A DNA stretch of 64,000 bases from Leuconostoc lactis KCTC 3528 = DSM 20202 (lineage in GTDB: Bacteria > Bacillota > Bacilli > Lactobacillales > Lactobacillaceae): the NCBI RefSeq assembly GCF_014651235.1, contig NZ_BMWM01000005.1, positions 1 to 64,000 on the forward strand, read 5' to 3'. Below the pieces are notes generated by a model that was not told the origin of the DNA, searched no databases, and saw nothing but the letters and a program-made list of their open reading frames with translations. Each line of letters opens with the position of its first letter. Position 1 is the first letter of the stretch. Shown piece after piece: positions 6,149-28,249 of this stretch. Both the position numbers and the translations under genes were made by a program.

Positions 6149-6151
6149 TTG

Positions 6152-6172
6152 AGACCGTGAGAGCGGTCTTTT
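6152..6172 (+). terminator. Terminator after mtnN
   Basis: AGACCG (6152-6157) and CGGTCT (6164-6169) form a six-base-pair stem followed by TTTT. The stem is short, so termination may be partial. Confidence 0.6.
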
Positions 6173-6218
6173 GTGCTTTAATCACGCAATATATAAATTT
6201 AAAATAAGGATTTTAAAG

Positions 6219-6875: not shown

Positions 6876-6876
6876 G

Positions 6877-7020: not shown

Positions 7021-8354
7021 TGGCGAAAACATATTATTTTATCGGTATCAAAGGTACAGGTATGGGGCCATTGGCACAAATTTTACATGATCAAGGCCAT
7101 GTGGTACTAGGCTCAGATATTGAAACTTATACTTATACACAAGCACCGTTGGAAGCAGCGGGGATTGAAATTTTGCCATTTGATGCAGCCAATGTGGATG
7201 CCCATACGGATGCCATTTTTATTCGAGGCAATGCGTTTACAGACGATCATGTTGAAGTTGCTCGCGCACTGGCGCTTGGGGTGGCCATGATGACCTATCC
7301 TGATGCAGTGCAAGATCAAATTGCGCAAACAACCTCGATTGCAGTCGCTGGTGCGCATGGGAAAACATCAACCACTGGTTTACTCGCACACGTCTTAAAA
7401 AACATTGCGCCAACCTCTTATTTGATTGGCGATGGTACGGGGCGTGGGGTACCAAATTCGCAATTTTTTGTGGTGGAAGCCGATGAATATCGTCGTCATT
7501 TCAAAGATTATGCCCCAGATTACGCCATTTTGACCAACATTGATTTTGATCATCCAGATTATTATCATGATATTAACGATGTGACAGCAGCTTTTTCAGA
7601 CTTTGCTGGCAACGTTAAGAAGGCCATTTTTGCTTGGGGCGATGACCCACATCTACGTAGTTTGCAATCAGCCGCTGACGTGTACTATTATGGGACAAAT
7701 GCGGATCGGGATGATTTTGTCGCCACGAATATTCGGAAATCAACTCAAGGGTCACATTTTGAGGTGTTGTTCCGTGGGGAACCTTTAGGTGAGTTTGCGG
7801 TGCCATTGTTTGGTCAGCACAGTATTTTAAATGCTTTGGCTGTCATTGCGGTGGCCTACATGGAAAAGGTTGATCTCAACTTGATTCGTGAGTTCTTAAT
7901 GACCTACCAAGGGGTTAAGCGACGATTTAGTGAAAAGCAAATTGCCGATATTACAGTAATTGATGATTATGCGCATCATCCTACGGAAATCGATGCGACT
8001 TTGGATGCGGCACGGCAGAAGTATCCCAATAAACAAATTATTGCGATTTTCCAACCGCACACTTACTCACGCGTGATTGCCTATAAAGACGAATTTGCGA
8101 AAAGTTTAGAAGCCGCAGACAAAGTCTTTTTAGCTGATATCTTTGGTTCAGCGCGTGAAAAGGCTGGCTCCGTGACTTCAGCAGAAATTGGTGCGGAAAT
8201 TAGTAAGTTTGGTGGCATTATTATAGAAGATAATATGAGCTTACTGATGCCATTTGAAAACGCAGTGATGGTCTTTATGGGTGCCGGTGATATTGAAAAA
8301 TATGAGTTCGCCTATGAAAAGTTACTGGGGCAATTGCGGACAGATTTGCAGTAA
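7020..8354 (+). CDS. murC: UDP-N-acetylmuramate-L-alanine ligase
   Basis: MurC adds L-alanine to UDP-MurNAc with ATP, the first amino-acid step of peptidoglycan synthesis. The 444-residue protein shows the Mur ligase order: N-terminal Rossmann domain with GIKGTGMG (residues 9-16), ATP loop GAHGKTST, VEADEYRRHF, DFDHPDYYHD, and the C-terminal domain with DDYAHHPTEID and FQPHTYSR. This is the form typical of Firmicutes. The start overlaps the stop of the 47-codon ORF by one base and GAGGAG precedes it. Cytoplasmic and essential in cell-wall bacteria. Confidence 0.97.
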   Translation: MAKTYYFIGIKGTGMGPLAQILHDQGHVVLGSDIETYTYTQAPLEAAGIEILPFDAANVDAHTDAIFIRGNAFTDDHVEVARALALGVAMMTYPDAVQDQIAQTTSIAVAGAHGKTSTTGLLAHVLKNIAPTSYLIGDGTGRGVPNSQFFVVEADEYRRHFKDYAPDYAILTNIDFDHPDYYHDINDVTAAFSDFAGNVKKAIFAWGDDPHLRSLQSAADVYYYGTNADRDDFVATNIRKSTQGSHFEVLFRGEPLGEFAVPLFGQHSILNALAVIAVAYMEKVDLNLIREFLMTYQGVKRRFSEKQIADITVIDDYAHHPTEIDATLDAARQKYPNKQIIAIFQPHTYSRVIAYKDEFAKSLEAADKVFLADIFGSAREKAGSVTSAEIGAEISKFGGIIIEDNMSLLMPFENAVMVFMGAGDIEKYEFAYEKLLGQLRTDLQ

Positions 8355-8398
8355 ATACTGTAGACATTAGCGTATTGATATTATTTTAAATGCGAGTT

Positions 8399-8497
8399 TG
8401 CTATAATGATAGTAACCAGGCATTTCTATAGCAATATAATATATAGAAACGGTAATATTTTACGCTGGTAAAATTATGAAAATACAGGGAGACTCAA
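8399..8497 (+). promoter_or_regulatory. Extended -10 promoter and structured leader of the BI-1 gene
   Basis: TGCTATAAT at 8399-8407 is a perfect extended -10. The leader of about 84 bases can form ACCAG (8415-8419) with CTGGT (8465-8469), enclosing TTTCTATA (8423-8430) with TATAGAAA (8442-8449). The competing hairpin ATTTTAC (8457-8463) with GTAAAAT (8468-8474) shares the CTGGT bases. Two exclusive folds upstream of the ribosome site suggest regulation. It matches no riboswitch class I recognise. Confidence 0.5.
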
Positions 8498-9214
8498 ATG
8501 GATAATTTTGACATGAATGCCCGTCGCGATGTGACAGGCATGGACGCAGGAATGCGTGCGTTCTTTAAACAAACTTATAGCTTTATGGGCATTGCAGTCT
8601 TAGTGACAGCGTTCACTGGCTTCATTGTACAAAAGTTTTTCTTAGCACAAGTTTATGCCTTGATTGCCGGTAATTTGATCGGAACATTGGCCTTGTTTGG
8701 GATTCAAATCTTGATCATGACCATGATTGGTCGCGCTACATTTAAAAACCCAGCACGTGCGTTTGGTCTCTTAATGGCCTTTGCCGTGATTGAAGGGTTG
8801 ACATTGGGCTTGTTGTTGGCGGTTTATACCGGTGCTTCAGTCATGATGGCTTTCGCCTCAGCTGCTTCAGTCTTTGGTGGTATGGCACTTTATGGTGTGT
8901 TCACGAAGCGTGATTTAACAGGTATGGGATCAATTTTGTTTGGCATGTTGATTGGTTTGATCATTGCATCATTGATTAACCTATTTTTCTATAATGGTAT
9001 TGTCTCATTATTGATTTCAGGGGTAACCGTGATTATCTTTGCTTTGTATACAGCCTATGATAACCAAAACTTGAAGGTGATGTACGGTCAATATGCTGGT
9101 CAAGTTGATACAACGGGCTTGGCAGTCAATGGGGCCTTGCGTCTCTATCTTGACTTTATTAACTTGTTCTTTGCCTTTATTCAAATCTTTGGTATTGGTA
9201 ACTCAAGAGATTAA
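8498..9214 (+). CDS. Bax inhibitor-1 family membrane protein
   Basis: A 238-residue protein with seven predicted membrane segments, of the BI-1/YccA/YetJ family (pH-dependent calcium leak channels in characterised bacterial members). The N-terminal cytoplasmic part ends in MRAFFKQTYSFMGIAVLVTA, the typical entry into the first helix. The C-terminal LYTAYDNQNLKVMYGQ and LRLYLDFINLFFAFIQIFG are family signatures; the Asp residues near the last helix fit the pH-sensing pair. GGGAG (8488-8492) precedes the ATG. It is a single-gene unit with its own promoter and a terminator at 9239. The physiological role here is not known. Confidence 0.9.
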   Translation: MDNFDMNARRDVTGMDAGMRAFFKQTYSFMGIAVLVTAFTGFIVQKFFLAQVYALIAGNLIGTLALFGIQILIMTMIGRATFKNPARAFGLLMAFAVIEGLTLGLLLAVYTGASVMMAFASAASVFGGMALYGVFTKRDLTGMGSILFGMLIGLIIASLINLFFYNGIVSLLISGVTVIIFALYTAYDNQNLKVMYGQYAGQVDTTGLAVNGALRLYLDFINLFFAFIQIFGIGNSRD

Positions 9215-9238
9215 GTTTAATTGTCGAAAGACAAGACA

Positions 9239-9264
9239 AAAGCAGCCGAAAGGCTGTTTTTTTT
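9239..9264 (+). terminator. Terminator after the BI-1 gene
   Basis: AGCAGCC, GAAA and GGCTGTT form a stem with a GNRA-like tetraloop, followed by eight T. The final T at 9264 is part of the next extended -10. Confidence 0.85.
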
Positions 9265-9272
9265 GTTACACT
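9264..9272 (+). promoter_or_regulatory. Extended -10 promoter of polA
   Basis: TGTTACACT (TGn plus TACACT) follows directly on the terminator T-tract. The ribosome site AAGGAAG at 9284-9290 and the ATG at 9296 follow. Confidence 0.55.
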
Positions 9273-9295
9273 AGAACTACGTAAAGGAAGATAAA

Positions 9296-11977
9296 ATGAC
9301 AAAGACACTACTTTTAATTGATGGTAATTCGCTCGCATTTCGTGCGTTTTATGCCATGTATAATCAATTGGATCGGATGATTGCGCATAATGGGCTCCAC
9401 ACCAACGCCTTGGTCGCTTTTAATAACTTTCTAGACCAAATCGTGGATCCCATGCAACCTGACCTAGCTGTGGTAGCCTGGGATGCAGCATCGGGCAAAG
9501 AAACATTCCGTGGTGACTTATTTGCCGGTTATAAAGACGGCCGATCAAAAGCACCAGAAGAGTTCAAAGAACAGTTTCCCTACCTGCGTGAAATGGTCGC
9601 TTTACATGGCTTACGCAATTATGAACATCCTGAATTGGAAGCCGATGATATCATTGGGACATTTTCGCGTTTAGGTGAAGCTGCCGGCTATCAGGTGACC
9701 ATTGTGACGGGCGACCAAGATTTAATCCAACTCGCAACGGATAACATCACAGTGAACGTGACGAAAAAAGGTGTGACGGAAATTGAGCGTTTTACACCAG
9801 CCTATATTCAAGAAAAGTATGGCTTGACACCGCTACAAATTATTGAGAAAAAGGCTCTAACTGGTGATACGTCTGATAATTATCCTGGCGTTACTAAGGT
9901 TGGGGAAAAGACAGCGTTGAAATTGTTAGCCCAGTATCACGATTTGGATAATCTTTATGCTCAAATCGATGAGATGAAGCCTTCAAAAATGAAAGAGAAT
10001 TTGATTAACGATCGTGAAGCTGCTTACACAGCACGGCAATTAGCAACGATTCGGACAGACGCTGATCTTGAATTACCACTGACGGAAATTGAATATCGCG
10101 GTATTGATTATGATGGGTTGGTACCGTTCTATGAAGATATCGATTTTAAACAACAATTGGCTAAAATTAAAGCCTTAAAACAATCCGGTCAGTTGACTAG
10201 TCAAGCGATAGTGCCGGAACCAGTGGTGAATGTTGTGCCATTGCAGGCAGATAATTTACGAGCGGTGGCGATGATGGGCGACAAAATTGCCTTGCATATC
10301 GAAATGGCCGGCCAAAACTATCATGAAGATGACATGATTGGTTTTGTTATTGGTAATCCAACAGTGGGTTACTATGGTAGTCTTGATTTGTCCTTACTGC
10401 AAACACCGGAACTGCGCGCGGTAATTGAAAACCCAGCTATCATCAAAAACGTTTTTAACGTCAAAGCACAATTGGTGTTGTTTAAGCGCCTGGGCTTAGC
10501 GTTGCAGGGTGTTGATTTTGATTTTTTGTTGGCAGCTTACTTGCTCGATACGACAGCAAATGATAATGAACTCTCAACGTTGGCTCAACGTTTTGATGTA
10601 TATGTGCAGCCAGATGAAGAAGTTTATGGCAAGGGAGCCAAGTTTGCGGTGCCAGAAGACGTCGATCAGGTCTTGACGCATCTTGGTCAAAAGGCGGATG
10701 CGTTAATGCAGTTGGAAACGCCCACTTTGGCGGCTTTAACTGATCATGAGCAAATGCATTTGTACACTGATATTGAGTTGCCTTTAGCCCACGTGTTAGC
10801 CGATATGGAATACCGTGGTATTGCCATTAACCAAGCGCGTTTAGTAGAAATTGGGACAGATTTAACTGGTCGTATTCAGGCGATTGAAGATGCCATTTAT
10901 CTAGAAGCTGGGGAAAAATTCAACATTAATTCACCGAAGCAACTCGGGGTGTTGTTGTTTGAAAAAATGGGCTTGCCAGTCATCAAAAAAACGAAAACTG
11001 GTTATTCAACGGCAGTTGATGTCCTGGAAAAGTTAGCACATCAAGCCCCAATTGTCGATTATATTTTACAATATCGGCAACTGGCCAAGCTAAAGTCCAC
11101 TTATGTGGATGGCCTATTAGCGGTTGTCAATCAAAAAGATAGCAAAATTCACACGCGTTTCTTACAGACCTTGACGCAAACGGGCCGTTTGTCATCAGTT
11201 GATCCTAATTTGCAAAATATTCCGATGCGTTCCGATGAAGGACGTCAAATTCGGACAGCCTTTGTGCCAAGTCAACCAGATTGGCAAATTTTTGGTGCGG
11301 ATTATTCGCAAATTGAATTACGCGTGCTGGCGCATATGACAGGTGACAAAAATATGCAACAGGCGTTCTTAAATGGCGAAGATATTCATGCCGAAACGGC
11401 ACGTGCCGTCTTTGGCTTAGACAGTCAAGCACCAGTTAATGCGTTACAACGGCGAACGGCAAAAGCGGTTAACTTTGGGATTGTCTACGGGATTTCTGAT
11501 TTTGGTTTGGCCAATAATCTGGGGATTTCCCGTGCGCAAGCCAGGCAGTTTATTGAAACGTATTTTAAAGAATTCCCTAAAGTACATGAGTGGATGGAAA
11601 ATATTAAGGCGGTTGCACATGCACAAGGGTATGTGGAAACCATTGCCAAGCGGCGCCGTTACTTACCTGATATTCATGCTAAAAACTTTAACTTGCGGAG
11701 TTTTGCGGAACGGACAGCGATGAATTCACCAATTCAAGGTTCCGCTGCAGATATTATCAAGATTGCGATGATTAAGGTGGCCGACGCCTTAGCAGAAAAT
11801 AACATGCAAGCACGGATGTTACTGCAGGTCCACGATGAATTGATTTTTGAAGCACCAACGTCTGAAATACCCGAATTGACAGCGTTAGTGACCCAAGTGA
11901 TGGATTCAGCTGTGACTTTGGATGTCCCTATGCAGGTTGAAAGCCATTATGGTAAAACATGGTATGATGCCAAGTAA
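9296..11977 (+). CDS. polA: DNA polymerase I
   Basis: An 893-residue family A polymerase for Okazaki fragment processing and repair. The N-terminal 290 residues are the 5'-3' exonuclease (LLLIDGNSLAFRAFYA, ELEADDIIGTF, TGDQDLIQLA, GDTSDNYPGV). A central 3'-5' exonuclease-like domain follows, but the DxE metal motif is replaced (IALHIEMAG), so proofreading is probably lost, as in many Firmicutes. Polymerase motifs A (DYSQIELRVLAH), B (RRTAKAVNFGIVYG) and C (QVHDELIFE) are intact. AAGGAAG precedes the ATG. A monocistronic unit with an extended -10 promoter. Confidence 0.97.
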   Translation: MTKTLLLIDGNSLAFRAFYAMYNQLDRMIAHNGLHTNALVAFNNFLDQIVDPMQPDLAVVAWDAASGKETFRGDLFAGYKDGRSKAPEEFKEQFPYLREMVALHGLRNYEHPELEADDIIGTFSRLGEAAGYQVTIVTGDQDLIQLATDNITVNVTKKGVTEIERFTPAYIQEKYGLTPLQIIEKKALTGDTSDNYPGVTKVGEKTALKLLAQYHDLDNLYAQIDEMKPSKMKENLINDREAAYTARQLATIRTDADLELPLTEIEYRGIDYDGLVPFYEDIDFKQQLAKIKALKQSGQLTSQAIVPEPVVNVVPLQADNLRAVAMMGDKIALHIEMAGQNYHEDDMIGFVIGNPTVGYYGSLDLSLLQTPELRAVIENPAIIKNVFNVKAQLVLFKRLGLALQGVDFDFLLAAYLLDTTANDNELSTLAQRFDVYVQPDEEVYGKGAKFAVPEDVDQVLTHLGQKADALMQLETPTLAALTDHEQMHLYTDIELPLAHVLADMEYRGIAINQARLVEIGTDLTGRIQAIEDAIYLEAGEKFNINSPKQLGVLLFEKMGLPVIKKTKTGYSTAVDVLEKLAHQAPIVDYILQYRQLAKLKSTYVDGLLAVVNQKDSKIHTRFLQTLTQTGRLSSVDPNLQNIPMRSDEGRQIRTAFVPSQPDWQIFGADYSQIELRVLAHMTGDKNMQQAFLNGEDIHAETARAVFGLDSQAPVNALQRRTAKAVNFGIVYGISDFGLANNLGISRAQARQFIETYFKEFPKVHEWMENIKAVAHAQGYVETIAKRRRYLPDIHAKNFNLRSFAERTAMNSPIQGSAADIIKIAMIKVADALAENNMQARMLLQVHDELIFEAPTSEIPELTALVTQVMDSAVTLDVPMQVESHYGKTWYDAK

Positions 11978-12004
11978 GCGTTAAAATAGTGACCTTTTTT
12001 CTCA

Positions 12005-12021
12005 TGTTATAAAAGCTGACA
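12005..12021 (+). promoter_or_regulatory. GlnR box upstream of glnRA
   Basis: TGTTATAAAAGCTGACA matches the GlnR/TnrA consensus TGTNAN7TNACA at every fixed position. It lies 61 bases before the glnR ATG, just upstream of a TAGAAT -10-like box near 12050, so GlnR should repress its own operon under nitrogen excess. Confidence 0.85.
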
Positions 12022-12081
12022 TGTATTATCAAAATCGCCAGATTTAGCTTAGAATATAGATATGTTAACGGAGGTTGTTAA

Positions 12082-12417
12082 ATGAGCGAACGTGAATTGA
12101 GAAGAAATTTAGCAATTCTGCCGATTGGCACCGTCCGTGAATTGACTCTATTAACTGATCGTCAGATTCGATATTATGAACAAAATCAGTTAATTACGCC
12201 AAATCGCGGGAAGGGCGGTCAGCGTCGATTTTCATTGAATGACGTGGATCGCTTACTAGAAATCAAAGATTTTCTAGATGCGGGTGATTCAATCAAAGAT
12301 ATTCAAGAAATCTTCGCAAAAAAGCGCCGCAAAGCAGAAGGGCAACCTGATTCGGAAACAGCATTACGTCGATCATTGCAAAAAGAATTTGCGCAAATTG
12401 GTCGGTTTGGTCGTTAG
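12082..12417 (+). CDS. glnR: MerR-family nitrogen repressor GlnR
   Basis: GlnR represses glnRA and ammonium genes when feedback-inhibited glutamine synthetase stabilises its DNA-bound dimer. The 111-residue protein has a MerR winged helix-turn-helix (LTLLTDRQIRYYEQNQLI, then GGQRRFSLNDVDRLLEI) and a short C-terminal tail (SLQKEFAQIGRFGR), which in Bacillus is the part that senses glutamine synthetase. It is shorter than Bacillus GlnR (135) but typical for lactic acid bacteria. GGAGG precedes the ATG. A perfect GlnR box lies upstream and glnA follows after 49 bases. Confidence 0.95.
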   Translation: MSERELRRNLAILPIGTVRELTLLTDRQIRYYEQNQLITPNRGKGGQRRFSLNDVDRLLEIKDFLDAGDSIKDIQEIFAKKRRKAEGQPDSETALRRSLQKEFAQIGRFGR

Positions 12418-12466
12418 TTTTGAAATGCTGGGCATTTCAATATTGGTGTAGGAAGAAAGGAAAATC

Positions 12467-13813
12467 ATGGCACGCAAGTCATATACAAAAGAAGAAATTA
12501 AGCAAATTGTTGCAGATGAAAATGTGGAGTTCATCCGTGTCACATTTACCGATGTTTTTGGTGCAATCAAGAACGTTGAAGTGCCAACATCACAATTGGA
12601 CAAAGTGTTAAACAACAATTTGATGTTTGACGGGTCATCAATTGAAGGATTCGTACGTATTAACGAATCAGATATGTACCTTTACCCTGACTTGTCAACC
12701 TTTATGATTTTCCCATGGGCAACAGATGAGCATGGTGGTAAGGTTGCACGTTTGATTGCTGATATCTATACGGCTGATCGCGAACCATTTGCTGGTGACC
12801 CACGTTATGCTTTGCGCAAGGTTTTGGCAGAAGCTAAAGCTGCTGGTTTCACATCATTTAACGTTGGAACAGAACCAGAATTTTTCTTGTTCAAGTTGGA
12901 CGCCAATGGTAACCCAACCACTGAATTGAACGATAAGGGTGGTTACTTTGACTTGGCCCCACTTGACATGGGTGAAAATGCCCGCCGTGAAATCGTGTTG
13001 ACTTTGGAAAAGATGGGCTTTGAAATTGAAGCAGCTCACCACGAAGTTGCGGAAGGGCAACACGAAGTTGACTTCAAGTACGCTTCTGCTTTGGAAGCAG
13101 CCGACAACATTCAGACATTTAAGTTGGTTGTGAAGACCATTGCGCGTAAGAATGGTTACTTTGCGACATTTATGCCAAAGCCAGTTGCTGGGATTAACGG
13201 GTCAGGCATGCACACCAACATGTCATTGTTCCGCGACTCAGAAAATGCTTTTGAAGACACATCAGATGAAATGGGCTTGTCAAAGACAGCTTATAACTTC
13301 TTGGGCGGTTTGTTGGCGCACGCGACAGCTTTAACAGCTTTGGCAAACCCAACTGTCAACTCATACAAGCGTTTGACACCTGGTTTTGAAGCACCAGTTT
13401 ATGTGGCATGGTCTGCCTCAAACCGTTCACCAATGGTACGCGTACCGGCTTCTCGTGGTAAGTCAACACGTTTGGAATTGCGTTCAGTGGATCCAACGGC
13501 TAACCCTTATACAACATTGGCTGCGGTCTTAGCTGCTGGTTTGGATGGGATCAAGAACGAACTTGAACCATTGGCATCTGTTGATAAGAACATCTACTTG
13601 ATGGATGAAACAGAACGCACAAAGGCTGGTATCACAGACTTGCCAGACACATTGTTGGCTGCTGTGCGTGAATTGGCGAAGGATGATACGGTGATTGCAG
13701 CCATTGGGACGCATATTGCGGATAAGTTTATTGAAGCTAAGAAGATTGAATATACATCATATCGTCAGTTCGTCTCACAATGGGAAACTGACGCCTATCT
13801 TGAAAACTATTAA
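12467..13813 (+). CDS. glnA: Glutamine synthetase, type I-alpha
   Basis: The enzyme makes glutamine from glutamate, ammonia and ATP as a dodecamer. The 448-residue length and lack of an adenylylation loop fit the Gram-positive GSI-alpha type, which is feedback-inhibited and partners GlnR. Motifs include the substrate-binding [10 protein letters not shown], the metal-site [13 protein letters not shown], the ATP-site [11 protein letters not shown], and [11 protein letters not shown] near the active-site arginines. AAAGGA (12459-12464 region) lies before the ATG. Codon choice is strongly biased (TTG, ACA, CAA), as in other highly expressed genes here. It is second in the glnRA operon. Confidence 0.98.
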
Positions 13814-13853
13814 TGGCTGCTGCTTTGGCCATTAGGGCACATTAATTCATCAG

Positions 13854-13881
13854 AAAAGCCACGACAAGTCGTAGCTTTTTT
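13854..13881 (+). terminator. Terminator after glnA
   Basis: AAAAGC (13854-13859) pairs with GCTTTT (13874-13879), and ACGAC with GTCGT inside it, with one mismatch between. A T-run follows and leads into TG of the next promoter. Confidence 0.8.
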
Positions 13882-13889
13882 GTTATGAT
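13881..13889 (+). promoter_or_regulatory. Extended -10 promoter of the YitT gene
   Basis: TGTTATGAT (TGn plus TATGAT) begins directly at the end of the glnA terminator T-tract. GAGGAG precedes the ATG at 13930 with a rather long 12-base spacer. Confidence 0.5.
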
Positions 13890-13929
13890 AAAGGGAGTGT
13901 TTTAATAGACTGAGGAGCGTGTCAACGAC

Positions 13930-14919
13930 ATGAAAAACATAACAATTGACTGGCGAAAAGCTTGGCTAATTGCGATTGTATTTATCGCAAGTGCCTGCGT
14001 CCAGGTCTTGGCTTTGAATGCCTTCTTAATCCCTAATAATGTGTTCTCAAGTGGGTTTAATGGTATTGCACAGCTTTTGGCGATTTTCTTTGCGCAAGTC
14101 TTTCATATGAATGTCCAAACCGGTGTGTTCATTATGATTTTCAACATCCCAATTGGGATTATTGGCTGGAAGTTAATCGGTGGTAAATTTACAATTTTGA
14201 GTTTTTTGAATTCAATTTTTGTGTCATTTTTGCAAATTCTTGCCCCAACACAAGCTTTGACAACTGAACCCTTACTCGCCTCACTGTTTGGTGGTTTATT
14301 GTTAGGGGTATCAATTGGGCTGGCCATGCGTTATGGCTTTTCGACCGGTGGGATGGACATTGTTGCCATGGTCGTTCAGAAGCGTACGGGAAAGTCAATC
14401 GGCGCCTTGATGAACGGGATTAACTTTGTTGTGGTGATTGTTGCCGGTACCTATATTGGTTGGCAAAATGCCTTGTTCACGTTAATCGGGATTTATGCCA
14501 CTGGTCGTGCTGTTGATGCCATTTATACCGGTTATCAAAAGTTAACGGCCATGATTGTCACCTCAAAAGGCGACGAAGTGGTGACCGCTTTGCATAAGGA
14601 TCTGATTCGTGGGATTACTATTTTGCCATCAAAAGGGGCTTATACCAAGCGTGATTCTATGACGTTGATGATGGTATTATCACGTTATGAATTGGTTGAA
14701 ATGCAAGAGATTGTTCATCGGACAGATCCCAAAGCATTTATCAATCTGATGAGTACGGTGAGTGTGTCAGGGGAATTCTTTGACTCTGACCGCCAGTTGC
14801 AAATGAAAAAAGCCGTTGCCGTACCGAAATTTGAAACGGTTGAAGCGCAAATTGAAGCTGATCTACAATTAGAAGCGCAATTAGATCAAATTGAAGTCGA
14901 ACAAAGGAAGGATATCTAA
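13930..14919 (+). CDS. YitT family membrane protein
   Basis: A 329-residue membrane protein with about five or six N-terminal transmembrane helices (to about residue 200) followed by a cytoplasmic DUF2179 domain. Family signatures are [20 protein letters not shown] near the start, [15 protein letters not shown] in the middle and [20 protein letters not shown] in the C-terminal domain. A Glu/Gln-rich tail ends the protein. Function of the family is not established; transport has been suggested. The tautomerase gene follows after two bases, so the two form an operon. Confidence 0.88.
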
Positions 14920-14921
14920 CT

Positions 14922-15107
14922 ATGCCTATTGTACAAGTTGAATTATTAGAAGGTCGCACACAAGCACAACTCGCCAAAATGGTGAAAGACATCACGGATG
15001 TGATTGTTGAAGATGCTGGTGCAGCACGCGAAGCGGTACACGTTATTGTACGTGAAATGCCTAAAGACCGTTACGCAGTTGGCGGCGTGTTAAAGAGTGA
15101 TCAATAA
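14922..15107 (+). CDS. 4-oxalocrotonate tautomerase family protein
   Basis: A 61-residue protein of the 4-oxalocrotonate tautomerase superfamily, small hexameric enzymes using an N-terminal proline as general base. [16 protein letters not shown] has the required Pro-2 (Pro-1 after methionine removal). An Arg in [13 protein letters not shown] fits the usual active-site position. The physiological substrate in Firmicutes is unknown. AAGGA (14904-14908) precedes the ATG, inside the end of the YitT gene. A strong terminator follows. Confidence 0.9.
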
Positions 15108-15113
15108 GCGAAT

Positions 15114-15150
15114 AAAAAAGCGTGTGTCATACGTGACACACGCTTTTTTT
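15114..15150. terminator. Bidirectional terminator between tautomerase and scrR
   Basis: GCGTGTGTCA (15120-15129) pairs perfectly with TGACACACGC (15134-15143) around TACG, with A-run before and T-run after. It serves the plus-strand tautomerase and the convergent scrR. Confidence 0.95.
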
Positions 15151-16120
15151 ATTGTTTTGGTTGCGTTGAATCCCGAATGACCAATTGGCCATCCATCACG
15201 ACACGTTGGATAGTTTGTGGCTGTTCATCACGGACTTTAGTAAACAGCTGATAGAGCTGTTTACCTGCTTCAAAAAAATTAAATTCAAAGCTAGTTAGAT
15301 TTGGGGTCACAGTTTTGCTAAAAAACGATTGACCAAAGCCAATATATTGTGGTGTTTGCTGCAATGCGTAGCCAGCCTGCATGGCACCAACCACAATACG
15401 GTCAGTAGCACCAATCACAAGATCGTACTGATCGGCGGCCATAGCCATTTTGGCATCGTGCTTGGCGGTATCGAGTTTAAAGTCGGTAATCACTTCGGTA
15501 TAGGGAATATTTGTTAGCGCAGCTTTAATCCCCATGAACCGTTCATAGCCAACGGCATGATCCGCTTTGGCATCGACATTTAACAATAACACATTTTCAG
15601 GTTTTAAGGTCTTAATATAGGCACCAACAGCCTCGCCGCCCTGACGATCAGCCATAATGACACGGTGAAAATTCGGTTCGTCTTGGCCTTGAATGACAAT
15701 TGGCAGTGGGGAAGCCATTAAAGTCTCGCGAATGGCATCAGTTAAATTAGCCGTTAACAAAATGATGCCGCCGACATTTTGGGCGTGTAATTTGTCAATT
15801 GCGGCTAATTCGCGCTCAGGATCTTGATAGGCATTGACAATTAAAAAAGTGTCATCATGGTTATTTTCGTCCAAACCACGAAGCATATCTGATTGGGCAA
15901 TGGAATCCAAACGGGGCACAATGACGCCAATCGTATGATTTTTTTGTTGCTTAAGACTTTGGGCAAAAGTGTTGGGGGTATAGCGATATTCTTTTACAAT
16001 CCGATCAATTTTTTGTCGGGTGTGGGTACTCACAGAACCACCATTGAGGTAACGTGAGACCGTACTTTTGGCGACATTTGCCATTTTGGCAATGTCATTA
16101 ATTGTGACTTTCTTATTCAT
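15149..16120 (-). CDS. scrR: LacI-family repressor of the sucrose genes
   Basis: A 323-residue LacI/GalR regulator. It starts MNKKVTINDIAKMANVAKST, the usual helix-turn-helix N-terminus, followed by the hinge and a periplasmic-binding-protein-like sensor domain (HTIGVIVPRLDSIAQ onwards). I place the start at 16120 because LacI proteins begin four to six residues before TI-DIA; the open frame extends to 16339 but into the promoter region. An AAGG lies only three bases upstream, so the start could be the ATG at 16132. It is divergent from scrA, with the palindrome GAACCGGTTC between them as probable operator. Sugar specificity is inferred from neighbours. Confidence 0.88.
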   Translation of the reverse strand: MNKKVTINDIAKMANVAKSTVSRYLNGGSVSTHTRQKIDRIVKEYRYTPNTFAQSLKQQKNHTIGVIVPRLDSIAQSDMLRGLDENNHDDTFLIVNAYQDPERELAAIDKLHAQNVGGIILLTANLTDAIRETLMASPLPIVIQGQDEPNFHRVIMADRQGGEAVGAYIKTLKPENVLLLNVDAKADHAVGYERFMGIKAALTNIPYTEVITDFKLDTAKHDAKMAMAADQYDLVIGATDRIVVGAMQAGYALQQTPQYIGFGQSFFSKTVTPNLTSFEFNFFEAGKQLYQLFTKVRDEQPQTIQRVVMDGQLVIRDSTQPKQ

Positions 16121-22444: not shown

Positions 22445-22846
22445 ATGATTCCAAAGCGTGGGTTCTTTCAACCCTTAGAAATAACGGGCCAAATTAGTTG
22501 GTTATGGTGGGGAATTGCGCTGTTGGCTGGTCTCATTACTTGGAGTGAGTTGGAGTTCAAACTCGTCCTACCAGTGATTGGTTACCTGATCATCGTCCTC
22601 TTATTAGGCTTGATTCTTGTTTTACGCCGACGCGTATATATCGTCGGACCACGACTATTTTTAGGGCATGTCTTGACGTCAGAATATGAAGAAATTTCAC
22701 TTGTGAAAGTTGAAAATTGGCAATTAAATGGGCACGTATTACAATTCACACGTGCCGGCCGTGATCGGAAATATTGGTTGAGTAAAAATATCACACAACA
22801 AGTTAAGGATTATATGAATACCCATGACGGACAAAATCACAATTAA
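22445..22846 (+). CDS. EbsA-like membrane protein
   Basis: A 133-residue protein with two adjacent hydrophobic helices near the N-terminus (LWWGIALLAGLITW and VIGYLIIVLLLGLILVL), then RRRVYIVGPRLFLG and a soluble C-terminal part with a PH-like pattern of short strands. This resembles the EbsA-like family of Lactobacillales, whose function is unknown. I start at 22445, seven bases after GAGAGG, not at the ATG at 22430 that lies upstream of the ribosome site. Its end overlaps the start of the pseudouridine synthase gene by 23 bases, so they are co-expressed. Family name is tentative. Confidence 0.6.
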   Translation: MIPKRGFFQPLEITGQISWLWWGIALLAGLITWSELEFKLVLPVIGYLIIVLLLGLILVLRRRVYIVGPRLFLGHVLTSEYEEISLVKVENWQLNGHVLQFTRAGRDRKYWLSKNITQQVKDYMNTHDGQNHN

Positions 22847-23750
22847 TATCACAGATCAAACGGGCCGAATTGATGCCATTTTGGCAAATCAAAACTTACC
22901 GTATTCCCGTACAGTTTTAGCAAATTGGGTACAATCAGGCGAAGTGCTTGTTAACGGACAACGGGTGAAGCGCTCGTACAAAGTCACTGCCGGCGATGTG
23001 ATTAGCATTCAGCCACCAGTCGTACAGCCGACCGAAATTGTCGCCGAAGCGATGCCATTAGACATTGTGTATGAAGATGCAGATTTATTAGTGGTCAATA
23101 AGCCACAAGGGATGGTTGTGCACCCAGCAGCAGGGCATACGTCTGGCACATTGGTGAATGGTTTGTTACACCATGCACCATTATCGACGATTAATGGCGA
23201 ATTCCGACCAGGGATTGTCCATCGCATTGACCGTGACACCAGTGGGTTATTAATGGTTGCCAAAAACGATCAAGCTCATCAAGCACTCTCTGCACAATTG
23301 AAAGCGCATAAAAACGACCGTATTTACTATGCACTCGTTCGCGGTGAATTTGAAGAAAATACTGGGACAATTAACGCACCAATCGCCCGTCACGCTATTG
23401 ACCGTAAAAAGCAAGCGGTCCAAGAAGGCGGACGTGAAGCGGTGACGCATTTTGAAGTGATCGCCCGTTACGTTGGTTATACGTTACTCAAGGTGCGCTT
23501 AGAAACTGGTCGTACGCATCAAATCCGTGTCCATTTAACTTACATTGGCCATCCTATTGTTGGGGATCCAGTTTATGGTGGCGCACAAAAGCTACCTGGC
23601 GTGCATTTAGCAGGTCAATTATTACACGCCAAAACACTATCGCTAACCCAACCAACAACTGGGGAAACCCTTACGTTTGATAGTGAAATACCCGCATATT
23701 TTGCGCAGGCTTTAGCAACTTTAACCCCAATTAATCCGCAACATGATTAA
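22824..23750 (+). CDS. RluD/RluA-type 23S rRNA pseudouridine synthase
   Basis: A 308-residue enzyme that isomerises uridines in RNA. An N-terminal S4 RNA-binding domain (residues about 14-75, with LANWVQSGEVLVNGQRV) precedes the RluA catalytic domain: VVNKPQGMVVHPAAGH, the catalytic Asp in VHRIDRDTSGLLMVAK, and LETGRTHQIRVHL. Length and S4 domain match RluD of Firmicutes (YlyB/YjbO group). In Bacillus and lactobacilli such a gene also lies beside pyrR, which agrees with the neighbour here. Exact target uridines cannot be read from sequence. Confidence 0.92.
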   Translation: MTDKITINITDQTGRIDAILANQNLPYSRTVLANWVQSGEVLVNGQRVKRSYKVTAGDVISIQPPVVQPTEIVAEAMPLDIVYEDADLLVVNKPQGMVVHPAAGHTSGTLVNGLLHHAPLSTINGEFRPGIVHRIDRDTSGLLMVAKNDQAHQALSAQLKAHKNDRIYYALVRGEFEENTGTINAPIARHAIDRKKQAVQEGGREAVTHFEVIARYVGYTLLKVRLETGRTHQIRVHLTYIGHPIVGDPVYGGAQKLPGVHLAGQLLHAKTLSLTQPTTGETLTFDSEIPAYFAQALATLTPINPQHD

Positions 23751-23799: not shown

Positions 23800-24327
23800 A
23801 TGGCAAATAAAGAAGTATTAGACAACGCATCATTACAACGTGCGTTGACGCGTATTACTTACGAGATTATTGAACGTAACAAGGGCGGGCAAGATCTTGT
23901 CTTGGTCGGCATTAAGACACGTGGTGAATTCTTAGCTCATCGGATCGCGAATCGTCTAGAACAATTAGAAGGGGTTAAGATCCCAGTGATGGCCATTGAC
24001 ATCACTAATTTTCGTGATGATGTTTTGAATCGTGATGATAGTTTAGGTCTAAATGCTGAAGAAAAAACCAATATTTCGGATAAAAATATTGTGTTAATCG
24101 ACGATGTGTTGTTTACAGGTCGCACAATCCGCGCCGCGTTGGATGCCTTGATTCACATTGGCCGACCAAATACCATTGCTTTGGCGGTACTGGTTGATCG
24201 TGGGCATCGGGAACTCCCAATTCGCGCAGACTTTGTTGGGAAAAATATTCCAACGGCGCAAAATGAAAAGATCAAGGTCTTGGTCCAAGAAATTGACGGC
24301 CGTGACGCCGTTGAAATTGTCCATTAA
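23800..24327 (+). CDS. pyrR: PyrR, pyrimidine operon regulator / uracil phosphoribosyltransferase
   Basis: A 175-residue PyrR protein: an RNA-binding attenuation regulator that senses UMP/UTP and also has uracil phosphoribosyltransferase activity. The PRPP motif [17 protein letters not shown] is intact, as are [16 protein letters not shown] and the C-terminal [15 protein letters not shown]. Normally PyrR controls the pyr biosynthetic genes by binding leader RNA. Here the next genes are the CarA-like and CarB-like proteins, which appear catalytically dead. The start codon is separated from its ribosome site by a hairpin. Confidence 0.95.
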
Positions 24328-24383: not shown

Positions 24384-25469
24384 ATGAAACGGCACTTAAT
24401 TCTTGAGGATGGCACGGTATTTCAAGGCTTAGGCTTTGGTGCACCGGCAACGACATTTGGCGAAATTATTTTTCATACAGCCATGACTGGTTACCAAGAA
24501 ATCATCACCGACCCGATTTATGATGGGCAGATGATTGTTTTTGCGATGCCAGTTGTCGGCGCTGCTGGGATTCATGCAGAGGCGTATGAATCGGTGAAAC
24601 CAACGATTCGAGGCATGATTGTGCATGATCTGGCGGAAGTCTCTGTTAATCGGCAACGTCGGATGAGTTTAGACCGCTTTTTAAAGCAAAATAATATTCC
24701 TGGTTTATACCAAGTAGACACACGGCAACTTATCCGGCATTTGCGCGAGACGGGACCACAAAAAGCGACCATCGTGGATTATGCTGATGAACACGCAGTG
24801 GATCAATTGGTGGCTACGGTGTTAACCAATAAACAGGTGCAAAATACCGCAACGCCAAAGCCCTATGCCAATCCAGGGCGGGGGCGTCATATTGTCGTGA
24901 TTGATTTTGGTTTAAAACACGGCATTTTACGGATGCTTGGTGACTTTGATGCCAATGTCTCGGTTTTACCTTATACAACAACTGTTGAAGAAGTGCTGAC
25001 ACTTGATCCAGATGGTATTGTGCTGTCAACTGGACCAGGGGACCCGCGCACACTGCCTGAAAGTGTGTTAACGCTGATTCGTGTTTTGCAAACCAAGGTT
25101 CCAATGTTGGGGATTGGCTTAGGGCATGAATTATTTGCGATGGCCAATGATGCGGAACTTAAGCCACTTCAGTCCGAACATCACGGGATGAATCATCCTA
25201 TTCAAGAAATTATTTCACAACAAATTTTTTATGCGATGCAGGGTCAAGGTTATGCGGTCGATGAAGCAACTATCAATCGAAAGAAAATGATTGTGACGTA
25301 TCGCGACTTGGTTGATGGCGCTGTCCAAGGGTTGCGCCACCGTGAATTTCCCGCTTTTAGTGTCCAATTTTTCCCTGATGCTGCCCCAGGGCCATTAGAA
25401 GCCACCGCTGTATTTGCAGATTTCTTTGAAACGGTAGAAGATTATGTCGAACATTTCAATCAATACTAA
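24384..25469 (+). CDS. Carbamoyl-phosphate synthase small subunit-like, glutaminase triad lost
   Basis: The 361-residue protein aligns along its whole length with CarA: VFQGLGFG, MTGYQEIITDP, DFGLKHGILR, LSTGPGDPR. In active CarA the C-terminal class I amidotransferase uses a Cys-His-Glu triad. Here the nucleophile motif GICLGHQ reads GIGLGHE (Gly-245), QNHGY reads QGQGY, and the HPEASPGP motif reads FPDAAPGP (Phe-330, Asp-332). All three catalytic residues are therefore replaced, so glutamine hydrolysis is not expected. The frame is uninterrupted and ordinary in codon use, arguing for a maintained pseudoenzyme rather than decay. It overlaps the carB-like gene by 26 bases and follows pyrR. 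Confidence 0.88.
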   Translation: MKRHLILEDGTVFQGLGFGAPATTFGEIIFHTAMTGYQEIITDPIYDGQMIVFAMPVVGAAGIHAEAYESVKPTIRGMIVHDLAEVSVNRQRRMSLDRFLKQNNIPGLYQVDTRQLIRHLRETGPQKATIVDYADEHAVDQLVATVLTNKQVQNTATPKPYANPGRGRHIVVIDFGLKHGILRMLGDFDANVSVLPYTTTVEEVLTLDPDGIVLSTGPGDPRTLPESVLTLIRVLQTKVPMLGIGLGHELFAMANDAELKPLQSEHHGMNHPIQEIISQQIFYAMQGQGYAVDEATINRKKMIVTYRDLVDGAVQGLRHREFPAFSVQFFPDAAPGPLEATAVFADFFETVEDYVEHFNQY

Positions 25470-27978
25470 TATAAAAAAACTGCTCTTTATCGGTGCGGGG
25501 GCCAATGACTTTGGCCGCGAGGCAGAACATGATGCAGCAATTTATCAAGTCATGCCAGAACTTTGCGGGCATGGCATTGATGTTTTTGTCATTGATGAAA
25601 ATCCTTATGCGCTGGCTTTAGAGAGTTTAGCAGCGACTGCCTATTGGCAACCACTGACAGTCGCCAACATTAAAGCCATTATCAAGGAAAATCATATTGA
25701 TACGGTGATGCCACTGTTTGGTGGTGAAGCCTCGCTGCGGATCTGGGCCGAAGTTGTCCAAAGTTGGTCACACGGGGATGGGGCATTACCGCATACGCTT
25801 GGTCTCAGCATTGAGATGTTACTGAAAGTGAATAATTTACCGGCATTGACGCAGCTGATGGCCGAAAATGGTTTACCGGTAATTACGAACTATGTGCTCA
25901 AAGCACAGGACGAAGCGAATGAGTTATTGCGTGAATTGCATTTGCCGTTAATGGTGCGGGCCTTACATCCTAACCAAACCAACACACGTCACATTATTGA
26001 ACGATTAGATGACTTTGAAGACGCGATTAACCTCGCGAAGTCGCAGTCCGTGACGCAAGAAGTGATTATTTCACGGGCTATCAATGGCCTTAAAGAAGTC
26101 AGTTTAGAGATTTTACGTGATGCACGCGGGAATAAAATGCAAATTGGCGCGAGTGAAGATATGGATCCAATTGGCATTCATACGGCTGATTCCCTCAGTG
26201 TGTCACCAATTCTGACGATTCAAGATCAGTTGATTAGCCGTATGCGAGACTACGCTTTTCGAGTTGCTGATATCTTGCAATTGCAAGGGATTATGCATGT
26301 CCAATTTGCAGTCGATGACGATACCGATAAAATTTATGTCATTAAAGTATCCCCTTATATTGACCAAATGGCGACGCGCATGGCTTTGGCTACGGGGTAC
26401 CCAACGATGCTTGTGGCCATTAATCTAGCAATGGGCATTCCGTTGGAAGAAATTGTGTTACCACACAATTTTGGACCACAAACAGCGATGATGGAACCCA
26501 TGATGGATCACGTGGTGGTTAAATTACCAATCTTTCCATTTGGTGAACTGGCTGAAGCTGGGGTACATGTGAAACGCCAGCTTAACAGTGTGCAGAAGTC
26601 CGTGGGGACAACCCTTGGCTTTGGCCGGACGTTTATTGAGTCCTTAGAAAAGGCGATTCGGTCGGCGCACTTTAACAATGCGAGTTTCTCACCAACGAAC
26701 ATGGCTCACATTAACGATGATGAATTGATTCAACAATTGATTCATCCACAAGATAACCGTGTACTCTTGTTGATTGAAGCGATTAAACGCGGGTATGAAA
26801 TTGATGAACTCGCGGAATTAACAGATATTGATGAATTCTTCTTCCATCAGTTGCAACATTTACACCAGTTGGAAACGGCTATTGAAGCCGATGTGGATAG
26901 TATTGCTGCACTAAGGCGTGGGAAAAGATACGGTTTGTCAGATGGTTTGATTGCCCGTTTTTGGCATACGGACTTTAATATTATACGGACCTTAGCCCAG
27001 GAACATCACATTGATGTGACCTATAAGGCGGTTGAACCATCTGCTGGTGAATTCCCAGAAAATGCGCGGCAGTATTATGCAACCTTTGAGTCAGAAAATG
27101 AGTCTAAGCAGGTCGCAGAAGACGCGATTTTGGTGATTGGCTCGGGCGCTTTTCGGATGGGGGATGCGGCATCTGGTGGTTATGCGACGACAATTACGCT
27201 GTCAGAGTTGCGCCGGTTGCAGTATCCAACCATTATTATGAACAATAATCCCAGTGACGCGACATTGTTACCACATTTAGCGGATAAGCAGTATTTGGAA
27301 CCATTGGAAATTGCTGATGTGATGCAGGTTGTTGAATTAGAACAGCCAAAGGCAATTATTATTCCTGGTAACCGTCGCAAGTTGATTCGCGCTTTACGTG
27401 AATTGGGACAGCGGGTAATTATTTTGCCAAAGGAAAAGCATACGCCTAACGGACCAGATGAAAACGAGTCAGAGTTTGCGCTAAACGTCTTTTTTGATGG
27501 CGACAAAGTCTATCCAATCAATATTACCCAACACATGGCTGGCGAGATGCGGGTGATTGCCCCTGCTGGTGAGGTACCAAGCCGGTTGCTGGCAACAACA
27601 AAAACACTAGAAAATCCTGGTGTTTACCAAGTGATTTGGTATGAAAAAACGGTTCAGTGGCGTCGGGAAGTTGATTTGGCACCGATTAATGATGGTACTT
27701 GGTTACGCCCAATGCCATTTGGGCAAATTGCTTTCTTGACAAAAGTTACGCATATCGAATGGTTACGTTTAACGATTCGGGCAGCTTTGCATGAAATGAC
27801 CGAACAGGATTTGCAACTATTAGCTGATATTGCGCATCATGCCAAGTCACAACCGTTGGCATTGGTGGCAGCTGACGTGAATTATCGTTTGCATTTGCAA
27901 CCGAGTGAAGTCATTGATGGTACAAGATTTGAAATGGGAGTAGGTGTGAGCGACTATGGGCGATCGGAAGAAGTATGA
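25444..27978 (+). CDS. Truncated, degenerate carbamoyl-phosphate synthase large subunit-like protein
   Basis: An 844-residue relative of CarB (normally about 1060). The first half has the CarB order but key parts changed: the Gly-rich ATP loop region reads RALHPNQTNTRH (172-183) and the metal-binding IEMNPR reads IKVSPY (300-305, Glu and Asn lost). GIHTADSLSV (244-253) and KSVGTTLGFGRT remain. The oligomerisation domain and linker (YKAVEPSAGEFPENA) are recognisable. A second pre-ATP-grasp domain starts at VIGSGAFRMGD (564-574), but after about residue 668 no second ATP-grasp or allosteric domain is seen; about 175 residues without recognised homology follow. Carbamoyl-phosphate synthesis is unlikely. 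Confidence 0.85.
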   Translation: MSNISINTNIKKLLFIGAGANDFGREAEHDAAIYQVMPELCGHGIDVFVIDENPYALALESLAATAYWQPLTVANIKAIIKENHIDTVMPLFGGEASLRIWAEVVQSWSHGDGALPHTLGLSIEMLLKVNNLPALTQLMAENGLPVITNYVLKAQDEANELLRELHLPLMVRALHPNQTNTRHIIERLDDFEDAINLAKSQSVTQEVIISRAINGLKEVSLEILRDARGNKMQIGASEDMDPIGIHTADSLSVSPILTIQDQLISRMRDYAFRVADILQLQGIMHVQFAVDDDTDKIYVIKVSPYIDQMATRMALATGYPTMLVAINLAMGIPLEEIVLPHNFGPQTAMMEPMMDHVVVKLPIFPFGELAEAGVHVKRQLNSVQKSVGTTLGFGRTFIESLEKAIRSAHFNNASFSPTNMAHINDDELIQQLIHPQDNRVLLLIEAIKRGYEIDELAELTDIDEFFFHQLQHLHQLETAIEADVDSIAALRRGKRYGLSDGLIARFWHTDFNIIRTLAQEHHIDVTYKAVEPSAGEFPENARQYYATFESENESKQVAEDAILVIGSGAFRMGDAASGGYATTITLSELRRLQYPTIIMNNNPSDATLLPHLADKQYLEPLEIADVMQVVELEQPKAIIIPGNRRKLIRALRELGQRVIILPKEKHTPNGPDENESEFALNVFFDGDKVYPINITQHMAGEMRVIAPAGEVPSRLLATTKTLENPGVYQVIWYEKTVQWRREVDLAPINDGTWLRPMPFGQIAFLTKVTHIEWLRLTIRAALHEMTEQDLQLLADIAHHAKSQPLALVAADVNYRLHLQPSEVIDGTRFEMGVGVSDYGRSEEV

Positions 27979-28249
27979 GACGCACCTCTTTAAGGGAATT
28001 CTCGTGACGCAAAATGCATCGGGGCGTTTTGAACCAAAAGCCGATGCGGTGCCACATTTGTGGCGTACGGGAAAACATACCAAGGGGCAATTTAAACAAA
28101 TTGGGCAAATTTTCTTAACGGAAAACGGCCAATCGGTGGCGGTGTTGCAGCAAGATAAATTAGCTTTTAATCAACGCCATGATTTTACCCCGCTACAACG
28201 GTGGACCGCAGAATACGTGCCACTTGAATTATTGACCAAGTGGTTATAA
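27956..28249 (+). CDS. Unknown small protein at the end of the pyrR-car-like cluster
   Basis: A 97-residue protein starting MGDRKKYETHLFKGILVTQN, with its ATG 23 bases inside the end of the carB-like gene, so it is translationally coupled to it. It has no membrane segment or signal peptide. Charged and aromatic residues are evenly spread, and it ends VPLELLTKWL. No family is recognised. A strong terminator directly after the stop makes it the last gene of the unit, and its tight overlap suggests that it works with the CarA/CarB-like pair. Confidence 0.72.
   Translation: MGDRKKYETHLFKGILVTQNASGRFEPKADAVPHLWRTGKHTKGQFKQIGQIFLTENGQSVAVLQQDKLAFNQRHDFTPLQRWTAEYVPLELLTKWL

Follow-up and report, generated by a model that had tools for sequence, protein, structure and literature searches.

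The carA′-carB′ locus

The window, a 64,000-nucleotide stretch of the Leuconostoc lactis genome, carries a pair of genes, denoted carA′ and carB′, that resemble the two subunits of carbamoyl-phosphate synthetase (CPS). All genes of the locus are on the plus strand. The first is an open frame (22824..23750) that we take, from resemblance, to be the pseudouridine synthase gene rluD, which anchors the ancestral pyr locus in synteny. It is followed by pyrR (23800..24327), which scores above the cut-offs of the NCBIfam PyrR models and is the sole PyrR found in the genome; a search of that genome with the window PyrR gives one strong match, the next best being 23% identical (3.3e-7). Next are carA′ (24384..25469), encoding a putatively glutaminase-dead CarA of 361 residues with domains PF00988 and PF00117, and carB′ (25444..27978), encoding a shortened CarB of 844 residues with broken ATP sites. 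As the original prediction described, both frames are open, overlap by 26 bases, and are followed by a small ORF. The latter (27956..28249, 97 residues) overlaps carB′ by 23 bases and belongs to PF24710 (DUF7671). Among 87 other loci, relatives of this ORF occur only in L034-L047 and L098, a lineage-specific distribution (genera g1, g2, g7, g8, and g39).

No pyrB or pyrC lies between pyrR and carA′ in the window. The second, intact carAB that was sought in the genome is present elsewhere (G000:C13). Promoter-like sites are at the level of shuffled sequence (17 versus 17.5), and terminator-like sites are somewhat above it (13 versus 8.4, sd 3.0).

Active site of the small subunit

Active CarAB requires the Cys-His pair of a class I glutaminase. 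Residues were called by alignment with E. coli CPS and 89 intact CPS, with E. coli numbering and the E. coli roles of ATP, metal, and glutamine contacts. Here “intact” means outside the pseudo set, and the metal triads are present in all 89; L155, where CarA carries C269G yet CarB is complete, was left out along with loci without both genes. CarA′ was initially thought to have lost its entire glutaminase triad, and for two of the three residues this holds: Cys269 is replaced by Gly245 (codon 25116..25118) and His353 by Phe330 (codon 25371..25373). The third change, Glu355 to Asp332, is not a loss because Asp occupies the position in 45 of the 89 intact CarA proteins, including the genome’s own second copy, and is normal in active enzymes. 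Across 88 loci with the pair, orthologues bear the same substitutions, with glycine at Cys269 in all 88 and His353 retained in none; the latter position holds Phe (57), Ser (13), Asn (4), Glu (4), Asp (4), Gln (3), Leu (2), or Tyr (1).

Four changes, C269G, Q273E, R291H, and E338Q, are each shared by 90% or more of the 73 core loci. The pocket of the window protein is lined by Gly245, Glu249, Phe330, and an Ile at the Ser47 position, and glycines 241 and 243, presumably of the oxyanion side, are kept. The small subunit passes the NCBIfam cut-off as an active enzyme (365.8 versus 307.35 bits). Its AlphaFold model (pLDDT 91.8) superposes on E. coli CarA (1jdb_F) with a Z of 50.0 over 355 residues, in keeping with the CarA-like fold anticipated for it.

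ATP sites and domains of the large subunit

The alignment bears out the losses predicted for the first ATP-grasp domain of CarB′ (25852..26451; PF02786, residues 137-336): the Gly-rich loop is gone, as are two of its three metal ligands. The changes are Glu299 to Lys, Asn301 to Ser, Arg303 to Tyr, Arg129 to Leu, and Gly175/Gly176 to Gln/Thr. At the positions we take to be the metal ligands of ATP-grasp 1 (Gln285, Glu299, and Asn301), the window has Gln, Lys, and Ser, and at those of ATP-grasp 2 (Gln829, Glu841, and Asn843) it has Ile, Pro, and Arg, with the alignment loose in this shortened part. Residues E215, G241, H243, D246, and S247 are kept; E215 and G241-H243 are presumably ribose-side contacts of the nucleotide. 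A complete metal triad is found at one of the 88 loci, in site 1 of L208, and in neither site of the other 87.

The oligomerisation domain (26734..26964; PF02787, residues 431-507) and preATP-grasp domain 2 (27121..27363; PF25596, residues 560-640) follow. The second ATP-grasp and the allosteric domain were both originally described as absent. For the allosteric MGS domain (PF02142) this is supported by a Pfam scan, which does not find it in the window CarB′; L206 and L211, both full-length forms, do carry it. The second ATP-grasp survives in reduced form, as a remnant at 27424..27963 whose approximate limits come from structural superposition. The AlphaFold model of CarB′ (pLDDT 84.9) matches E. 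coli CarB (1jdb_K) with a Z of 42.4 over 793 residues, superposed to residue 924, so that both subunits retain their folds in predicted models. Judged from these residues, the CarA′-CarB′ pair is probably non-catalytic.

Distribution in the Lactobacillaceae

A pair with glycine at the CarA nucleophile position and broken CarB ATP sites is found at the syntenic site in 31 of 40 sampled Lactobacillaceae genera; the other nine have no residue-confirmed pair. Since C269G and the loss of His353 recur in 88/88 loci, the changes are neither chance nor the assembly error that would have undone the original prediction, and a loss confined to the genus of the window is likewise ruled out. Three pairs of loci (L056/L094, L062/L095, and L068/L096), whose contigs are equal in length, each seem to be one genome under two labels. 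Both subunits are encoded at each of the 88 loci, although co-presence is not a blind test because loci were picked for a CarA or CarB relative. Outside the window, a relative of rluD is beside the pair at 86 loci of 87, and pyrR at 74; the window has both, which gives 75 of 88 for pyrR. The 13 loci without pyrR include genera g3, g6, g27, and g37 and two named Limosilactobacillus loci, where the pair is kept.

In Enterococcus, Bacillus, and Ligilactobacillus, and within the family in genus g13 (L225), the same place is occupied by rluD-pyrR-...-intact carAB. The pair is homologous in both subunits to CarA/CarB (PyrAA/PyrAB) of this pyr operon, has the same predicted folds, and sits at the same place; it differs in lacking the nucleophile, either metal triad and, in the window, the MGS domain and pyrB/pyrC between pyrR and carA′. 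The pair is an old, family-wide pseudoenzyme, the remnant of the ancestral pyr-operon CPS at the rluD-pyrR site. Among the open-licence literature matches listed, none recognisably describes this pseudo-CPS.

CarB′ varies in length from 1067 to 643 residues across the 88 loci, with six full-length forms and 73 of 806-905 residues. Frames of at least 780 residues are found in 86 of the 88 loci, covering 31 genera; the shortest, of 643 and 659 residues, are in L202 and L205, where a frameshift is possible. Intermediates (L211, L203, L208, and L210) have the order pyrR-pyrP-carA′ followed by a CarB of full length in which at least one of the two ATP sites is broken. Degeneration of both partners is as first proposed, but it is not strictly parallel: the CarA nucleophile is gone at every locus read, whereas some CarB proteins are still full length though already broken. 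In a CarA tree of 72 chosen rows, pseudo-CarA falls in two clusters, and it may have a single origin. Downstream of the pair, nine of the 24 loci listed have a convergent ORF as their next gene, presumably RqcH, with other neighbours in the remainder; a conserved partner common to all 24 was sought and not found.

A search for the Gly-for-Cys pattern over 295 genomes of the order gives matches in 62; those of G253, G446, and G369 and one of the two in G414, the second, lie outside the set read. The family f8 matches in that set (L215, L216, and L221) are not CarA and presumably an Obg-like GTPase, and L218, L219, and L220 have no CarA relative. L217 does have one; its genome (G327), of another family, has a dead CPS within a complete pyr operon and lacks a second CarB.

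Selection and coevolution

CarA′ is under strong purifying selection, with dN/dS of about 0.03. Values are 0.014-0.035 for carA′ (five of six pairs computable) and 0.055-0.074 for carB′ (two of six), beside 0.025-0.078 for intact CPS genes; all are rough because many pairs have a saturated or undefined dS. Leuconostoc CarA′ proteins are 91.7% identical to one another, compared with 84.6% for catalytic CarA (higher in 15/15 pairs), and between genera the two are at 59.6% and 60.5% (CarA′ higher in 15/40 pairs). CarB′ diverges fast, at 74.4% versus 89.0% for catalytic CarB within Leuconostoc and 38.6% versus 68.2% between genera.

Pairwise distances were correlated, with RluD distance removed, over 45 loci having all four genes after 12 near-duplicate loci were taken out by hand. 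The correlation is 0.59 for CarA′-CarB′ (0/2000 permutations), 0.385 for CarB′-PyrR (0/2000), and 0.18 for CarA′-PyrR (28/2000). The pair shows what marks a conserved pseudoenzyme, namely catalytic residues lost in common across species that retain the fold and keep it under purifying selection, and not the frameshifts, stops, and dN/dS near 1 of a pseudogene: the window frames are open and dN/dS is low where computable, the short CarB frames of L202 and L205 being possible exceptions. Together with the presence of both partners at 88 loci, the purifying selection, correlated evolution, and preserved folds agree with the earlier proposal of a maintained pair with another role.

Genomes without an active synthetase

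At least 102 genomes, hand-picked among the matches listed (G165, one of them, is 87% complete), carry a short CarB′. By hand count, 23 of these 102 have no CarB above the family cut-off, which rules out, as the whole story, a role in regulating the genome’s own CPS. Sixteen of the 23 also have no PyrB match, five of them (G135, G157, G159, G182, and G194) lying outside the no-match cases listed. The pair persists in these 16 genomes without an intact CPS or PyrB and is consequently not merely a CPS regulator.

Relation to PyrR

The association of the pair with PyrR consists of linkage at 75/88 loci and a weak to moderate rate correlation. PyrR-binding RNA above the Rfam cut-off is found at three of the six loci with full-length forms; at the 28 scanned loci with CarB below 910 residues, window included and two of them probably one genome, none is found at the pair. 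In genus g38 the pair follows a second PyrR, whose identity to the pyr-operon PyrR is 63-64%. The two PyrR proteins of L. plantarum, PyrR1 and PyrR2, are reportedly 62% identical, and the published operon name is said to contain Aa1/Ab1. Genus g38 is probably Lactiplantibacillus, and its pair-adjacent PyrR is likely the counterpart of PyrR2. In Lactobacillus plantarum, PyrR2 reportedly makes pyr genes respond to inorganic carbon, in work that appears to concern PyrR2 only; the window genome differs in that the locus PyrR is the sole PyrR found.

Function of the pair

The CPS of the ancestral pyr operon would have lost catalysis in the Lactobacillaceae and been kept as a non-catalytic pair, any active CPS being encoded elsewhere in the genome. 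CarA′ and CarB′ presumably still form a complex. That the complex binds a nucleotide, as the retained ribose-side contacts hint despite the missing Gly-rich loop and metal ligands, is less secure, and so is its action through PyrR. On balance, we favor a complex that responds to a ligand and serves pyrimidine control as a regulator or scaffold, most likely in partnership with PyrR.

That the pair is now an enzyme for another reaction, using the remodelled CarA′ pocket or an altered ATP-grasp on a different substrate, is unlikely. In its favor, CarA′ is better conserved than CarB′ and has its four characteristic changes and both oxyanion-side glycines; however, glycine in place of the nucleophile at 88/88 loci and incomplete metal triads in both ATP-grasps at 87/88 speak against it, and the residues at the His position differ between lineages, as would not be expected of a single new chemistry common to all. 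It is rather improbable that the pair acts as a paralogue on the genome’s active CPS, inhibiting or stabilising it by entering mixed CarA′/CarB or CarB′/CarB assemblies. The oligomerisation domain and CarA fold are retained and the genome of the window has an intact copy, but the pair is kept where no CarB or PyrB is detected.

That the two genes are redundant and slowly decaying, retained by chance or operon position, would fit the shrinkage of CarB′ across genera, the very short frames of L202 and L205, the dead CPS of G327, and the core short forms, in which just 58 of the 363 alignment columns with 95% conservation among intact CarB are kept. We regard this as very unlikely, as long frames persist in 86/88 loci of 31 genera, dN/dS is far below 1 where computable, and in Leuconostoc CarA′ evolves at a slower pace than its catalytic counterpart. 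Hardly credible is an ammonia-using enzyme of the CPS I type, in which a glutaminase is no longer needed. CPS I (human CPS1) also lacks the Cys nucleophile, its CarA-like domain being kept for structural or allosteric reasons, and it superposes on CarA′ with a Z of 46.1. CPS I keeps both ATP sites and is active with ammonia, whereas the window pair combines a dead glutaminase with two broken ATP-grasps, neither metal triad being complete there or at 87/88 loci.

Within the favored reading of a regulatory or scaffold complex, a more specific and tentative possibility, which we hold to be doubtful, is that the pseudo-CPS serves as the sensor so far missing from the PyrR2 system: with catalysis removed, binding of a ligand (nucleotide, possibly bicarbonate or carbamoyl phosphate) would report metabolic state to PyrR. 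If so, it would explain the coupling of pyr expression to CO2 through PyrR2 in L. plantarum, and a whole two-subunit biosynthetic complex would have turned regulator at its own ancestral operon. The second PyrR of g38, probably Lactiplantibacillus, makes the pair a specific candidate for how inorganic carbon controls pyr genes.

What is annotated as a CPS in many lactic acid bacteria thus becomes a family-wide two-subunit pseudoenzyme. Metabolic models that count the locus as a CPS will be in error, above all where no other CPS exists, as in the 23 genomes. The graded forms, full-length broken and short broken, make the locus a good case for the passage from enzyme to non-enzyme.

Gene layout and catalytic residues

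The pair lies in a row of five genes, all on the + strand and separated by short gaps or overlaps. The row opens with rluD (22824-23750), followed by pyrR (23800-24327), carA' (24384-25469) directly after it, carB' (25444-27978), which overlaps carA', and an ORF of the DUF7671 family (PF24710; 27956-28249) with a 23-base overlap with carB'. Leuconostoc and four genera close to it are the only ones in which DUF7671 relatives come after the pair. Elsewhere in the window, a purine riboswitch aptamer scores over the Rfam cut-off (2664-2758, + strand).

Residues were called from alignment with E. coli carbamoyl-phosphate synthetase (CPS), whose numbering is used, and 89 intact CPS. CarA' carries C269G, H353F, Q273E, S47I, N311G, and H312Q, the first two confirming the Cys to Gly-245 and His to Phe-330 changes of the original prediction. 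The third claimed loss from the glutaminase triad, Glu to Asp-332, was rejected because Asp also replaces Glu355 in 45 of the 89 intact CarA. CarB' carries R129L, G175Q, G176T, E299K, N301S, and R303Y, so that the Gly-rich loop (G175Q, G176T) and two metal ligands (E299K, N301S) of the first ATP-grasp domain are gone as predicted; all three ligand positions of the second site also hold other letters. The second ATP-grasp and allosteric domains had both been called absent. The domain scan indeed finds no allosteric (MGS) domain in CarB', but the second ATP-grasp is shortened rather than missing, as the predicted model superposes on E. coli CarB to residue 924. In single-chain structure predictions, CarB' (pLDDT 84.9) matches E. 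coli CarB with Z 42.4 and rmsd 2.6 over 793 residues, and CarA' (pLDDT 91.8) matches E. coli CarA with Z 50.0 and rmsd 1.4 over 355 residues, with its whole fold retained in the prediction. As a CPS small subunit, the glutaminase-dead CarA' scores above the curated NCBIfam cut-off, which will probably lead automatic pipelines to annotate it wrongly.

The genome does hold a second, intact carA-carB, on contig 13 (locus L033; products of 376 and 1069 aa), in which every active-CPS residue checked by alignment is present; no further carA-carB was found in the genome beyond this copy and the window pair. A pyrB stands in front of the contig 13 genes, with a PyrR-binding RNA (RF00515) immediately before it, and the 19 kb read around them yielded no pyrR. 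Since the genome has no other strong PyrR match, the window PyrR presumably controls the contig 13 pyrB-carA-carB operon.

Conservation across Lactobacillaceae

Leuconostoc is, by its taxonomy record, a member of the Lactobacillaceae, and 201 genomes of this family were searched with the C-terminal part of CarB' as query. Loci from further CarA and PyrR searches and from a scan of named genomes were added, and all were then read. Residue data were obtained for 88 loci, 3 of them probably repeats of others, from 31 of the 40 genera sampled. Named holders are Leuconostoc, Weissella uvarum, W. halotolerans, Furfurilactobacillus, Secundilactobacillus, Levilactobacillus, Fructilactobacillus, and Limosilactobacillus; the CarB' of Leuconostoc litchii is 72% identical to that of the window. 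Gly replaces Cys269 in 88/88 loci, His353 is retained in none, and a complete metal triad occurs only at site 1 of L208. CarB is 806–905 aa long in 73 loci, 780–805 aa in 7, over 1000 aa in 6, and under 700 aa in 2. The last are L202 (carB 3072-5003) and L205 (2548-4527), with frames of just 643 and 659 aa, which may reflect truncation or a frameshift. Outside the window, rluD lies near the pair in 86/87 loci and pyrR in 74/87; pyrR is absent from the pair loci of genera g3, g6, g27, and g37 and of two named Limosilactobacillus. Nine sampled genera have no confirmed pair; among them, g28 probably has one, and g13 (L225) has rluD-pyrR and then an intact carA-carB.

Within Leuconostoc, where many pairs are saturated, dN/dS is 0.014–0.035 for carA' (5/6 pairs computable), 0.055–0.074 for carB' (2/6 computable), and 0.025–0.078 for intact carA and carB. 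Identity within the genus is higher for CarA' than for catalytic CarA (91.7% vs 84.6%, in 15/15 pairs) and lower for CarB' than for catalytic CarB (74.4% vs 89.0%, 15/15). Between genera, CarA' stands at 59.6% against 60.5% (higher in just 15/40 pairs) and CarB' at 38.6% against 68.2% (lower in 40/40). With RluD distance removed, and with some shared ancestry left by the permutations, distances correlate at 0.59 for CarA'-CarB' and 0.385 for CarB'-PyrR (each 0/2000 permutations), and weakly, at 0.18, for CarA'-PyrR (28/2000).

Probable origin from a pyr operon

In Enterococcus, Bacillus, and Ligilactobacillus, rluD-pyrR occupies the same place, with an intact carA-carB some kilobases further. 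In L211, L202, L203, L208, and L210, pyrR and carA' are still separated by a gene resembling uracil permeases (PF00860), read here as pyrP. CarB has 1054–1067 aa in six loci (L203, L204, L206, L208, L210, and L211), each with at least one ATP site broken: in L211, Ala replaces both E299 and E841, and L208 retains site 1. A PyrR-binding RNA at or above the Rfam cut-off precedes 3/6 of these loci (L211, L204, L210) and was found at the pair in 0/28 other loci scanned, the window included; L101 has a match about 5 kb beyond the pair. From the shared place, the pyrP-bearing and full-length broken forms, and the RNA at three of the six, the pair is best read as the remnant of an ancestral pyr operon that lost pyrB and pyrC. 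In the CarA tree, core short forms group with intact Lactobacillus and Ligilactobacillus CarA (support 92/94), apart from the second CarA of the window genome. The pseudo-CarA sequences form two clusters; a single origin is possible on these sequences.

Proposed role

Most likely, the pair acts near PyrR as a partner in pyrimidine control that responds to a ligand. At least 90% of the 88 loci keep E215, G241, H243, D246, and S247 of CarB', residues that in E. coli CarB lie close to the ribose side of the nucleotide. This pattern, with the Gly-rich loop and metal ligands lost, would suit a protein that may still bind a nucleotide but does not use it. That the pair performs a new reaction instead is unlikely. 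Modulation of an active CPS is a still less probable role, as the pair also occurs INDEPENDENCE from CPS: of the 102 genomes with a short CarB' among the matches listed, 23 lack a CarB above the family cut-off, and in 16 of the 23 PyrB likewise gives no match at E 1e-40, absences which may also stem from incomplete assemblies (G165, of the 23 and not the 16, is 87% complete). All 23 have a PyrR match. Retention of the pair in such genomes argues that it is not only for regulating CPS or de novo synthesis. Slow decay would agree with the short CarB frames of L202 and L205, but the counts and conservation figures above make it very improbable.

Five genomes (G028, G094, G104, G177, and G197) have PyrB without an intact CarB, so their carbamoyl phosphate must have another source, for instance arginine catabolism.

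Probable relation to PyrR2 of Lactobacillus plantarum

Genus g38 is probably Lactiplantibacillus, as the LarE of G071 shares 86.6% identity with the solved structure 5udq, LarE from L. plantarum; identity is 86–89% between g38 genomes, 73–77% to the next genus, and 65% or less to other genera. All seven g38 genomes have a strong CarA' match (643–649 bits) and two PyrR, and by coordinates one PyrR immediately precedes the CarA' match in 6/7 among the matches listed; pair residues were read in two (L083, L084). In three genomes read, the pyr-operon PyrR is 63–64% identical to the pair-side PyrR, and a PyrR-binding RNA precedes the former in 2. PyrR1 and PyrR2 of L. plantarum reportedly share 62% identity, and deletion of pyrR2 is said to impose a need for high CO2, or for arginine and pyrimidines. 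PMC3582564 reports on both proteins. By this comparison, L. plantarum pyrR2 (lp_1782) would correspond to the PyrR beside the pseudo-CPS.

Other unusual synthetases

A genome from another family of the order, G327, has an apparent whole pyr operon (L222, G327:C1:559000-578900, at 5206-15813) in the order rluD-pyrR-pyrB-pyrC-carA-carB-pyrD-pyrF-pyrE, named by eye except for rluD, pyrR, carA, and carB. Both subunits look dead: CarA has C269G and no longer has His353, and the 1003-aa CarB carries substitutions at ATP-site residues. No second CarB was found in G327. In G209, G243, and G271, of the same genus, the single CarB reaches 1152–1221 bits, where most other genomes compared give about 1550, which suggests that the CPS of this genus has diverged. 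Finally, the carA of L155 (6878-7954), from a Rikenellaceae MAG, has Cys269 replaced by Gly yet keeps both His353 and Glu355, and the CarB sites that were checked are kept too; it may be an assembly variant or part of a CPS that depends on ammonia.
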